Shown here piece after piece: positions 39,170 through 44,214 of a stretch of 64,000 nt of DNA. Below the pieces are notes generated by a model. The model did no database searches and was not told where the DNA came from. It was given only the letters and a program-made list of their open reading frames with translations. A program made the translations under genes and the position numbers. The stretch is taken from assembly GCF_036287235.1 (NCBI RefSeq), contig NZ_CP142850.1, positions 1,939,127 to 2,003,126 on the forward strand, written 5' to 3'. Position 1 is the stretch's first letter. Every line of letters begins with the position of its first letter. The stretch is from Exiguobacterium sp. 9-2. Its GTDB lineage: Bacteria > Bacillota > Bacilli > Exiguobacteriales > Exiguobacteriaceae.

Positions 39170-40501
39170 TCAATCTTCTCGTTTCTTAAACGCGGCAATG
39201 TAGAAGCCATCCGTTCCGACTGTCGTCGGTAACAACTTGAGTTCTGCTCGATCTCCGATTAGATGCCGCACGGATTCTGGCATGCGTTCCGCGAAAGATG
39301 CATCAAAGTCAAAACCCTGATCGAGAATGAACGCTGTCTGCTCCTCGTTTTCGGTCGGATCAATCGTACAAGTCGAATAGACGAAGATTCCACCTTTTTT
39401 AACGAGTGGTAAGACAGATGTCAAGATGTCTCGTTGAATTTTTGGGAGTTGCTCGAGTTGTTCTGGACGTTTCGTCCATTTGATATCCGGTTTTCTCCGA
39501 ATGACACCAAGTCCTGAACAAGGTGCATCGACAAGAATCCGGTCAAAGGATTCTACTTCGAAGCGTTCCCCTGCTTTACGGGCATCTAACGCTTCTGCTC
39601 GAACAGTCGTAAGACCTAATCGTGTCGCTTGCTGTTCAATCAATTTAATCTTATGTGGATGAAGATCAAGTGCCTGTAGTGTACCCGTCGTCAAACCTTC
39701 AGCAATATGCATCGCTTTCCCACCAGGTGCGGCACAGCTGTCGAGTACATGATCGGATGCTTCTGCACCAAGCGCACGGGCGACGAGCATTGAGCTCTCA
39801 TCCTGAAGAGAAAGATACCCACGGTCAATCAGATCAGTTTTTTGGACGCTTCCTCGTTCGATTTCGAGACCGTCCGGCGCGACCGTGGATGGTTTTGCCG
39901 TCACACCTTGATCGAGTAGAAGCTCGATTGCTTCCTCCCGCGTCGTTTTCGTGCGATTGATACGGACCGTGACCGGTGCCGGTGTGTTATTCAATTGACA
40001 GATCTGAAGCGTTTCTTCCGGACCAAACAGTTCGATCCAGCGTTCGACGAGCCACTGCGGGTGACTCGTTTCGATGCTGATTCGTTTTGCAGCAGGCTCA
40101 ATCTCAGCGAAATGAGGCATTCCCGCCCGTAATACATTCCGTAGCACTCCGTTGACGACTTTTGAGACATGGACTTTCCCACGTTTTTTAGCAATTTCAA
40201 CGGCTTCATGAATGACGGCATGATCCGGTACACGATCGAGATAAAACAACTGATAGACACTCATTCGTAACAATGGGCGCATGAATGGATCAAGTTTTTT
40301 CTGTTTCGCTAAATATGGTTCTAAAATATAATCAAGCGTCAATTCACGACTGAGCGTCCCGTAGACGAGTTCCGTGAACAAGCCGACATCTGACGCCGAG
40401 ATGGCGCGTTTTTCAAGCATTTGGTGGACCGTAATTGTTGAGAAGGCGCCACCTTGTCCGATTTTCATTAATGTCGTTACTGCTGCGTCGCGTACATTCA
40501 T
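39170..40501 (-). CDS. rsmB: 16S rRNA (cytosine-967-C5)-methyltransferase RsmB
   Basis: N-terminal NusB-like RNA-binding domain (about 1-140) and SAM-dependent RsmB/Nop2 catalytic domain with LDSCAAPGGKAMHIAE, LVDAPCSGLGVIRRKPDIKW (first Cys) and VYSTCTIDPTENE (second Cys). Length 443 residues. Its ATG overlaps the stop of the Def-Fmt fusion gene by 4 nt. Confidence 0.95.
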   Translation of the reverse strand: MNVRDAAVTTLMKIGQGGAFSTITVHQMLEKRAISASDVGLFTELVYGTLSRELTLDYILEPYLAKQKKLDPFMRPLLRMSVYQLFYLDRVPDHAVIHEAVEIAKKRGKVHVSKVVNGVLRNVLRAGMPHFAEIEPAAKRISIETSHPQWLVERWIELFGPEETLQICQLNNTPAPVTVRINRTKTTREEAIELLLDQGVTAKPSTVAPDGLEIERGSVQKTDLIDRGYLSLQDESSMLVARALGAEASDHVLDSCAAPGGKAMHIAEGLTTGTLQALDLHPHKIKLIEQQATRLGLTTVRAEALDARKAGERFEVESFDRILVDAPCSGLGVIRRKPDIKWTKRPEQLEQLPKIQRDILTSVLPLVKKGGIFVYSTCTIDPTENEEQTAFILDQGFDFDASFAERMPESVRHLIGDRAELKLLPTTVGTDGFYIAAFKKRED

Positions 40502-41880
40502 GCGTTCTCACCTACTTGTTGTCCGAGTTCAAGCGATTGACCGATCCCGCGCATGAACGTGGCACCATCCATCCGTTTTTTGCCGGACGGCTGTAAGTCG
40601 ATCAGCTTCAACGCTGTTTCGGAACCTGTCGCGATGACGGGACCATCCGCTTCTAATGCGATGATTTCACCCGGTCGTCCCGTTCCTGAGACTTTCGTTG
40701 CGAAAAAGACTTTTAAGCGATCGTTCCCAAGCATCGTATACGTACTCGGGAATGGATTCATCCCACGAATTTGATCGTAGAGTGTCTCACCCGGTAGCGT
40801 AAAATCAAGTCGTTCCCGCTCACGTGAAATGTTCGGCGCAAATGTCGCTTCTTCCTCGACTTGTGCTTCCGGTGTCAATTCACCTGCTAACAGACGTGGT
40901 AACGTTTCAAGTAACAGGCGCGCTCCTGCGTCCGCTAACTTCTCAAACATCGAACCGGCTGTATCGTTCTCTTCGATTGGAACGATGATTTTTGACAACA
41001 TATCACCTGCGTCTAGCCGATCGACCATATACATGATCGTCACACCTGTCTCTTTTTCTCCATCGATGATCGCTTGATGAATCGGTGCACCGCCACGATA
41101 TTTCGGTAAGAGTGACGCATGGACGTTGATCGCCCCAAAACGTGGTGCTTCGAGAATAGCGGTCGGGACGATCTGACCGTAAGCTGCCGTGATAATGAGA
41201 TCTGGTTTTAAATCGAGAACATCTTGATAATCCTCTCGAATTCGTTTCGGTTGCAACACAGGAATGTCGTGTTCCATCGCGACGAGTTTTACAGGCGTCG
41301 GTTTGACTTCCCGTTTTCGTCCGACTGGTTTATCTGGTTGTGAGACGACACCGACGACGTCATACCCAGCATCGATGACTTCACGCAGCGTTCCTGCCGC
41401 AAACTCAGGCGTCCCCATGAAGACGACGCGCGGCTTTTCTTGCTCGACGAGTTTATCCGTAAACAGGACACCATCTAAATGATCCATCTCGTGTTGGATG
41501 GCACGTGCAAAAAAGCCGTTTGCTTTGATTTTAACCGTCCGCCCGAGACGATCTTGAGACTTGACGACGATTCGGTCGAACCGTTCAACCGGTCCGAAGA
41601 TGCCCGGCATACTGAGACATCCTTCATCATCGATTTGCGAACCGTCCGCTTCGATGATTTCCGGGTTGATCAGCTCGATTGGTCCCGTCTCATCATCGGT
41701 ATGAACGACGGCTACACGAATCGGCTGGTTGATTTGCGGTGCGGCTAAACCAACCCCGTCATATTCGTACATCGTATCGAACATCCGGTCGATCATTTTA
41801 CCGAGTTTTTTATCAAACTTCGTGACAGGTTCACACACCTGTCGTAATACATCATTTGGTACTTCTACTACTTTATACAT
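40498..41880 (-). CDS. Fused peptide deformylase / methionyl-tRNA formyltransferase
   Basis: One 460-residue open frame encodes two enzymes of N-formylmethionine turnover. Residues 1-148 are peptide deformylase with all three motifs: GVGLAAPQ (42-49), EGCLS (86-90) and HEMDH (130-134), so Zn/Fe ligands C88, H130, H134 and the catalytic E131 are intact. Residues from about 149 are methionyl-tRNA formyltransferase: VVFMGTPEFAAGTL, N252 and H254 in NVHASLLPKYRGGAP, and D290 in LDAGD, followed by the C-terminal tRNA-binding barrel. At the junction (about 41430-41440) the linker is EQEKPRVV; there is no stop, no ribosome site and no start codon at the usual fmt N-terminus. In relatives def and fmt are adjacent separate genes (priA-def-fmt-rsmB), which explains the fusion by loss of the def stop. 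Fmt adds and Def removes the same formyl group, so both should act on the same nascent-chain cycle. Confidence 0.95.
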   Translation of the reverse strand: MYKVVEVPNDVLRQVCEPVTKFDKKLGKMIDRMFDTMYEYDGVGLAAPQINQPIRVAVVHTDDETGPIELINPEIIEADGSQIDDEGCLSMPGIFGPVERFDRIVVKSQDRLGRTVKIKANGFFARAIQHEMDHLDGVLFTDKLVEQEKPRVVFMGTPEFAAGTLREVIDAGYDVVGVVSQPDKPVGRKREVKPTPVKLVAMEHDIPVLQPKRIREDYQDVLDLKPDLIITAAYGQIVPTAILEAPRFGAINVHASLLPKYRGGAPIHQAIIDGEKETGVTIMYMVDRLDAGDMLSKIIVPIEENDTAGSMFEKLADAGARLLLETLPRLLAGELTPEAQVEEEATFAPNISRERERLDFTLPGETLYDQIRGMNPFPSTYTMLGNDRLKVFFATKVSGTGRPGEIIALEADGPVIATGSETALKLIDLQPSGKKRMDGATFMRGIGQSLELGQQVGENA

Positions 41881-41889
41881 ACAGACACC

Positions 41890-44214
41890 TCACATGAATA
41901 CAAATGGATTCAAGTCAATCGCGACTTGTGTTTTTGATTTTTGACGACGGGATAAGATATCACGGAGATGTGTCCGGACATCCTCCTGTCCTTTATGTTT
42001 AATTAAGACCTGTTGCCGGTACATATTTTTGAGTCGAGCGAGTGGTGCATCAAACGGTCCATTGACGACTAAATCCTCAGATTCAAAGGCACGAAGCTCG
42101 GAAGCGATTTGCTGCGCTTCTGCTTGTGCTTCGAGCGGATGCGCTGCTGAAACTGTAATCAGACCAAGGAACCAAAATGGTGGATGCCCACCGAGCTTTC
42201 GCAATTGCATCTCTCGCTTATAAAACGTTTCGAAATCATGCTGTTTGGCCGTTTGAATGACGTAATGCTCCGGGTTGTAAGTCTGGATAATTGACTGACC
42301 AGCGAGTTGACCCCGTCCGGCACGACCCGACACTTGGGTGATCAACTGAAACGTGCGCTCACTTGCTCGAAAATCCGGAATACCAAGCGTCGCATCGGCA
42401 GCAATCACTCCGACGAGTGTAACGTTCGGAAAGTCGAGACCTTTTGCGATCATCTGTGTTCCGAGCAGAATGTTTCCTTCCTTGCGTTCAAAGGCATCGA
42501 GTAATTTCTCATGCGCACCTTTACGCGACGTCGTATCCTGATCCATCCGGATGATTCGCGCCTCCGGAATCAAGTGTGCCAATTCTTCCTCAATCTTTTG
42601 CGTACCCGTTCCGAACTGACGAATTTTCGTCGATTCACAGGACGGACAAGTTTTCGGCATTGCGGCTTCAAACCCACAGTAGTGGCATTTCAAGCGATCT
42701 TCATGTTGGTGATAGGTTAAATTCACGGCACAATGCGGACATTGTAGCGTCTCCCCGCAATCCCGACATAAGACGAAGGTCGTATATCCGCGACGGTTCA
42801 GGAGTAAGACGGTCTGTTCCCCACGTTCGATGCGTTCTTTGATGCCTTCGACTAGCGCGAGGCTGAACGGCGTACGATTGCCCCGTTCGAGTTCCTTACG
42901 CATATCAACGATGTCGACTGGAGGCAGTTCCCCACCGAATCGTTCACGAAGCGGTAAGTAACGATAAACCCCTTTTTGTGCCCGTGCATACGTCTCGAGT
43001 AACGGTGTTGCACTTCCGAGCACGACGGGACAACGATGATAGGCTGCCCGCCATTTTGCGACATCGCGCGTATGATAGCGCGGATTCTCTTCCTGCTTAT
43101 AAGTTGTTTCATGTTCTTCATCGAGAATGATGATTCCGATGTTCGTCAGCGGCGCAAACACAGCAGACCGTGCACCGACGACGACATCGACCTCGCCTTG
43201 GGCGATTTTGCGCCACTCATCATACTTTTCTCCGAGCGATAGACCGCTATGCAAGACAGCGACCCGTTCTCCGAAACGGCGTTTAAACCGTTTGACCATC
43301 ATCGGCGTCAGACTGATCTCTGGGACGAGCAAGATCGCTTGTCTACCGCGTTCGAGTTGTGCATGAATCGATTCAAGATACACTTCCGTCTTACCGCTTC
43401 CTGTTACGCCATGTAACAAAAACGTTCCGGTCTCAGCTTCAGCCGTAATCGCCGAGACAGCTTCCTGTTGCTTTTCCGTCAAAGAGGACGGCACAAAGAT
43501 GTCTTGGACGAGATGTTCATAAGGATTTCGCCGAACATCGATCGTCTCGACTTGAATGATGCTCTTTTTCTCGAGAGCGTTCAACGTCGCGCTCGTTGCG
43601 CCCGTTGCCTGCTTGACTTCACTCCAAAGCGCATCCGGAAATTCTTGAATATACGAGTAAAGTGCCGCTTGTTGGCTCGCTTGTTTCGTAAAAGTTGCTT
43701 GCTCCTCTAGAAGACGAATCCGTTTATCGATCTTAGACGTCTTTTTCTCGCGAATGACCGGTTGAAGCGTCACGTCAGCTTGTTTCGCGGCTGTTAAGAC
43801 GATTTGTTGGACTTCCGTTGGCAATTGACTCATTTTCTTGCCATGATATGCCCGAAGTGGGCCCAACTCGACTATGACCAGTTTATCATAACTCACCTTT
43901 AAGGCAGCCGGCAGCATCGCAAGCAATGCCGTCGCCTGAAAACACAAAGTCGTTTCCGATAGATACGCCGATAACTCGAGTAATTCCTGTGTATAGGTCG
44001 GGGTCTCATCTAAGACACGGACGATCGATTTGACGTTCGTCAGATCAGACGTTGCTTTTGTTCCGACGACGATTCCAAGCAACGCCCGTGGACCAAATGG
44101 TACTTCGACGCGCATACCGGGAACGATCAGCTCTTGCCAGAGTTCTGGAACGGCATAATCAAACGGACGATCGACCGTTGCTGCTGCGACGTCAACGATG
44201 ACTTCGGCTATCAT
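41890..44214 (-). CDS. priA: Primosomal replication restart helicase PriA
   Basis: Restarts collapsed replication forks. N-terminal DNA-binding domain (IAEVIVDVAAATVDRPFDYAVP), Walker A LLHGVTGSGKTEVY, LVPEISLTPMM, Walker B IIILDEEHETTYKQEENPRYH, then the zinc-binding insertion with eight Cys (CRDCGETLQCPHC ... CHYCGF ... CPSC) and RGGL-like motifs GTQMIAKGLDFPN and QVSGRAGRG. Length 774 residues. It overlaps coaBC by 4 nt. Confidence 0.96.
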   Translation of the reverse strand: MIAEVIVDVAAATVDRPFDYAVPELWQELIVPGMRVEVPFGPRALLGIVVGTKATSDLTNVKSIVRVLDETPTYTQELLELSAYLSETTLCFQATALLAMLPAALKVSYDKLVIVELGPLRAYHGKKMSQLPTEVQQIVLTAAKQADVTLQPVIREKKTSKIDKRIRLLEEQATFTKQASQQAALYSYIQEFPDALWSEVKQATGATSATLNALEKKSIIQVETIDVRRNPYEHLVQDIFVPSSLTEKQQEAVSAITAEAETGTFLLHGVTGSGKTEVYLESIHAQLERGRQAILLVPEISLTPMMVKRFKRRFGERVAVLHSGLSLGEKYDEWRKIAQGEVDVVVGARSAVFAPLTNIGIIILDEEHETTYKQEENPRYHTRDVAKWRAAYHRCPVVLGSATPLLETYARAQKGVYRYLPLRERFGGELPPVDIVDMRKELERGNRTPFSLALVEGIKERIERGEQTVLLLNRRGYTTFVLCRDCGETLQCPHCAVNLTYHQHEDRLKCHYCGFEAAMPKTCPSCESTKIRQFGTGTQKIEEELAHLIPEARIIRMDQDTTSRKGAHEKLLDAFERKEGNILLGTQMIAKGLDFPNVTLVGVIAADATLGIPDFRASERTFQLITQVSGRAGRGQLAGQSIIQTYNPEHYVIQTAKQHDFETFYKREMQLRKLGGHPPFWFLGLITVSAAHPLEAQAEAQQIASELRAFESEDLVVNGPFDAPLARLKNMYRQQVLIKHKGQEDVRTHLRDILSRRQKSKTQVAIDLNPFVFM

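Follow-up and report, generated by a model that had tools for sequence, protein, structure and literature searches.

The def-fmt gene fusion of Exiguobacterium has lost the deformylase tail

The window analysed here is a stretch of 64,000 nucleotides from Exiguobacterium sp. 9-2, the assembly of which consists of one 3.06-Mb contig. On its minus strand a single open reading frame (40498..41880; ATG start, TGA stop, 460 aa) joins peptide deformylase (Def or PDF) to methionyl-tRNA formyltransferase (Fmt). The 20 bases before its start (41881..41900, minus strand) hold GAGGTG, a Shine-Dalgarno-like sequence that precedes the Def start in 38/38 genomes of the family. Directly upstream lies priA (41890..44214, minus strand), with coaBC and gmk beyond it. 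Downstream comes rsmB (39170..40501, minus strand), whose ATG overlaps the TGA of the fusion, and after it genes for a PP2C phosphatase and a PASTA kinase and then rsgA. All of these neighbours are of an ordinary housekeeping kind. In E. coli, and in many other members of the Bacillota than this family, def and fmt are adjacent genes in the same order as the two halves of the fusion, and E. coli reads def-fmt-rsmB where this window reads priA-fusion-rsmB. The adjacent genes have a stop between them and keep the Def tail, whereas the fusion has neither.

Profile searches recover both enzymes. Pep_deformylase (PF01327) matches residues 1-149 at 171.7 bits, Formyl_trans_N (PF00551) residues 151-326 at 140.8 bits and Formyl_trans_C (PF02911) residues 350-445 at 74.6 bits, and the match to methionyl-tRNA formyltransferase spans residues 151-448. 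The NCBIfam equivalogs TIGR00079 and TIGR00460 both score over their cut-offs, the latter with 314.5 bits against 201.5. The Def catalytic core is placed at residues 1-144 (41449..41880, minus strand) by PF01327, by a Foldseek match to 1ws0 and by the motifs GVGLAAPQ (42-49), EGCLS (86-90) and QHEMDH (129-134). It ends just past an eta3-like turn, FTDK, at residues 140-143. The linker VEQEKP (residues 145-150; 41431..41448, minus strand) leads into Fmt (residues 151-460; 40501..41430, minus strand), which has the formyl-transfer and C-terminal domains and carries N252, H254 and D290. A preliminary description of this DNA had called these three residues and the Def motifs GVGLAAPQ, EGCLS and HEMDH intact. 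They are, and the motif patterns of both halves recur in 38/38 family proteins, deformylase motifs I (GxGxAAxQ), II (EGCxS) and III (QHExDH) among them. The three Fmt residues are invariant across 63 alignment rows. The equivalog-level match, the catalytic Asn/His/Asp and the C-terminal domain together identify the second half as a methionyl-tRNA formyltransferase. The same description took both enzymes to be complete within the one frame. This is right for Fmt, which is whole, and for the catalytic core of Def, but the Def tail is absent. The linker was also put at eight residues; in this protein 7 residues lie between FTDK and RVVF.

A predicted structure agrees with these boundaries. AlphaFold2 on 63 alignment rows gave a mean pLDDT of 93.7 and a pTM of 0.70 (an earlier run on 30 fused rows was poor, with pLDDT 68.9 and pTM 0.47, and was not used). 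The Def part of the model matches B. cereus PDF 1ws0 in Foldseek (TMt 0.94, rmsd 0.6 over 144 columns) and the Fmt part matches B. anthracis Fmt 4iqf (TMt 0.95). There is a short helix at 140-143 and a first Fmt strand at 151-156, with no helix between them, and the lowest ten-residue pLDDT block is 141-150, at 80. The pTM is no more than consistent with two loosely held domains.

The fusion in this genome is real. It is one unbroken frame in 19/19 genomes of the genus and in 38/38 of the family, which covers two genera (the order comprises the same 38), and the proteins range from 100% down to 66% identity. The obvious worry is an assembly or sequencing artefact that erased a stop codon. An assembly error is excluded because the frame is unbroken in every one of the 38 genomes. 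These carry 18 different linkers, and the fusion has also been published from four Exiguobacterium reference genomes, each with a second PDF (PMC12690207; Mol Biol Evol 2025, msaf311, November 2025). We therefore reject the artefact as having a negligible chance of being correct.

The preliminary description had left open how widespread the fusion is, and the surveys answer this in part: it is present throughout the family and is not seen elsewhere in the Bacillota among the matches listed. Among 398 Bacilli genomes drawn, which included the 38 of the fusion family, 57 listed matches outside the family span Def and Fmt, and 57/57 have at least one stop. At E 1e-85 that draw left 57/398 genomes unmatched, and matches were listed down to about E 6e-104, so fusions that match more weakly could be missed. 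A draw of 398 Bacillota genomes gave spanning matches outside G000 that have at least one stop in 32/32 cases; at its threshold of E 1e-112 364/398 genomes had no match, so weakly matching fusions could escape here too. Four genomes with spanning matches in the Bacillota draw are also among the 57 of the Bacilli draw. In both draws def and fmt share a reading frame in many Bacillota, with a stop between them. For other phyla the survey covered plasmid records, searched by tblastn, and there the one-piece Def and Fmt matches examined have a stop after Def in 5/5 cases (6 such matches were listed; 25 records reached at least 80% cover, and the listing showed 23 of these). The raw material for this fusion is thus common in Bacillota, yet only one family shows it among the genomes surveyed.

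Eight metagenome-assembled contigs with def, seven from Clostridia bacterium and one from Candidatus Limadaptatus stercoravium, were taken by a DNA-pattern scan and are uninformative on the rarity of the fusion. In seven of them def and fmt form two separate frames, overlapping or closely spaced, and on the eighth (L048) def alone was recovered. On five (L046, L047, L050, L052 and L053) the two genes overlap by 4 nt and the Def tail is short, 21 residues counted from HExDH. Such an arrangement, overlapping genes with a short tail, comes close to being fused.

What separates the fusion from its neighbours is best seen at the junction. In the fused Def, HEMDHLDGVLFTDKL (15 residues) is followed by the linker and then by Fmt. 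Stand-alone Bacilli Defs have 25-33 residues counted from HExDH in 19/19 measured, and a wider set has 23-36 in Bacilli and 21 in seven of the metagenome contigs. At the DNA level, HExDH lies 66-87 nt from the F of FMGTP in the 38 fusions versus 89-120 nt in outgroups (19 loci measured out of 20, the remaining one having yielded no Def). In the outgroups this interval takes in the tail of Def, the stop codon of def and the start of fmt. All three are gone in the family fusions.

It is worth considering what this tail does in other organisms. E. coli PDF docks on L22 through its C-terminal helix (PMC8712518), with L149, K150, R153, K157, K160 and R163 as the ribosome-contact residues (PMC12690207). 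In the fusion the last residue of the Def core corresponds to E. coli L146, with the numbering checked on the K-12 sequence. Because the linker and then Fmt follow that position, the fusion has no counterpart of the ribosome-contact helix. The alpha3 helix after eta3 that docks at uL22, a feature of type 1B PDFs (the type found in E. coli), is likewise absent: between FTDK and the R[VI]VF of Fmt stand 5-12 residues, whose sequence takes 18 different forms among the 38 genomes. The eta3 turn itself is kept, FTDK standing where E. coli has FMDY, and trimming E. coli PDF past that turn lowers its activity (PMC5591237). The same work holds the C-terminal helix to be crucial in vivo for the PDF of E. 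coli, but it also describes the phage PDFs Vp16 and S-SSM7, which lack the ribosome-binding alpha3 helix, as the fused Def core does, and are active in vivo. The S-SSM7 enzyme keeps the eta3 turn, as is predicted for the fusion. Unlike the fusion, both phage enzymes are stand-alone proteins with no Fmt attached. The tails of stand-alone Bacilli Defs are short and mostly acidic and the E. coli helix is basic. Tail loss may matter little given tails of the Bacilli kind.

One can imagine that a separate Fmt is still made from an internal start. There is an in-frame ATG near the Fmt start in 38/38 genomes, the Met of FMGTP, and some of the more distant family genomes have scattered in-frame GTG or TTG codons at the junction. 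However, that Met is residue 155 here and falls inside the first Fmt strand. No in-frame start between HExDH and FMGTP is preceded by a Shine-Dalgarno match of more than 4 bases in any of the 38 genomes. The nine closest genomes, this one included, lack any in-frame start codon (ATG, GTG or TTG) from the Met of HEMDH up to FMGTP. The 38-genome comparison thus finds neither a conserved Fmt start nor a good Shine-Dalgarno sequence at the junction. Since both signals are lacking, a separate Fmt product appears unlikely, and we regard internal initiation as a very improbable addition to the fused product. The fusion, with a predicted product of 51 kDa, may still be cleaved after translation in the native host.

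The preliminary description had suggested looking for def and fmt elsewhere in the genome. There is a second PDF gene, a stand-alone 185-aa open frame at C1:2064732, so the source genome has two. It also has two PF00551 genes, but the one outside the fusion is PurN at C1:468615. The same arrangement, with the fusion in one unbroken frame and another PDF gene standing apart from it, as published for Exiguobacterium, holds in 38/38 genomes, with exactly two PF01327 matches in each. The stand-alone PDF is free of internal stops in 37/38. The one that is not belongs to G031, a genome of the second genus, where the gene (L128, C1:2262607-2263104) is broken at motif II by a single in-frame TAA and the remaining frame is open. 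Unless this TAA comes from a sequencing error, the fusion would be the sole intact PDF of that species.

A second PDF in every genome raises the question of whether the Def half is a decaying passenger while the stand-alone enzyme does all the work. The Def half does differ from the outgroups by more than they differ from one another. Fusion and outgroup Defs are 48% identical versus 55% among the outgroups themselves, and for Fmt the gap is smaller, 56% versus 59% (based on 8 of the 38 fusions and, for the outgroups, 30 of their 66 pairs). Selection says otherwise. The median NG86 dN/dS over three pair sets is 0.028-0.036 for the Def half and 0.030-0.058 for the Fmt half, rough values since the median domain dS is 1.2-2.1, from 37/38 proteins with L023 left out. 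For the six-residue linker it is 0.20-0.31, with dS undefined in 55/81, 16/36 and 67/171 pairs of the three sets. By this measure both domains are under strong purifying selection. A decaying Def would not be expected to keep its motifs in 38/38 proteins with a dN/dS of about 0.03, and G031 shows the reverse of what decay calls for, with the stand-alone PDF interrupted and the fusion intact. The fusion of a relative, E. alkaliphilum, also allows an E. coli delta-def-fmt strain to grow again (PMC12690207). We give the passenger idea very little credence.

Another proposal is that the halves are coupled. Fmt would then do the work of the lost tail and take Def to ribosomes at initiation or early in elongation, and formylation and deformylation would be linked in space. 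The Def core ends before the ribosome-contact residues, yet selection on it is strong. The E. alkaliphilum protein works in E. coli, where the PDF helix is called crucial, and in G031 the fusion is the sole PDF gene without a stop. Against this, a linker that varies in both length and sequence does not fit a fixed geometry. The tail-less phage PDFs work in vivo, so a substitute may not be needed, and the tails of stand-alone Bacilli Defs are short anyway. Coupling through Fmt is possible but unsupported, and we consider it improbable. A looser version holds that the fusion swapped the Def tail for Fmt and that Fmt, or nothing, now brings Def to ribosomes. We find this version doubtful as well. 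If true, the swap would give a natural deformylase that serves the cell without the standard docking tail, and one species would have the tail-less fusion as its sole intact deformylase.

We argue that the fusion is a genuine bifunctional Def-Fmt protein whose halves most likely act independently and are made at 1:1, and we put the probability of this at about 0.85. The ancestor of the fusion family, presumably in the Exiguobacterium lineage, would have had def and fmt as adjacent genes, as many Bacillota do. Loss of the Def tail, together with the stop codon of def and the start of fmt, then left one frame, whether through one deletion or in several steps. Judging from the signals described above, the fusion is probably translated from the def ribosome-binding site alone. 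With that as the sole start the ratio of Def to Fmt would be fixed at 1:1. The two halves would behave as beads on a short, loose string. The Fmt half would formylate free Met-tRNA(fMet) and the Def half would deformylate nascent chains once they are past the tunnel. Between these two steps the formyl group passes through initiation and translation. No direct futile cycle is therefore expected from joining the enzymes. Since the fused Def is without the docking tail of E. coli, it must find nascent chains without it. The stand-alone PDF probably shares the deformylation work.

It must be said that the Def-Fmt fusion is already known. PMC12690207 calls it unusual and describes the same architecture with a second PDF, and nothing essential in that description differs from what we find here. 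The preliminary description named no biochemical study of such a protein, but the complementation reported there is a functional one, from which its authors infer that both activities are present in vivo. The gene used was a codon-optimised plasmid copy in E. coli, which does not in itself show the efficiency of the native protein. Literature searches, judged by titles, found no other papers on a Def-Fmt fusion. To that description we add the anatomy of the junction, the loss of the tail, the variation of the linker and the interrupted second PDF. The family-wide count of 38/38 adds further detail to the published four genomes. The value beyond the published claim thus lies in the origin and spread of the fusion, the tail loss and the genome with an interrupted second PDF.

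The fusion joins the step that opens the formyl cycle to the one that closes it, at a fixed ratio. It suggests that a bacterium can be served by a Def core that has no tail, and it offers a natural, long-stable system for asking whether cells need PDF to dock on the ribosome. It is also a clean gene-fusion marker for one family.
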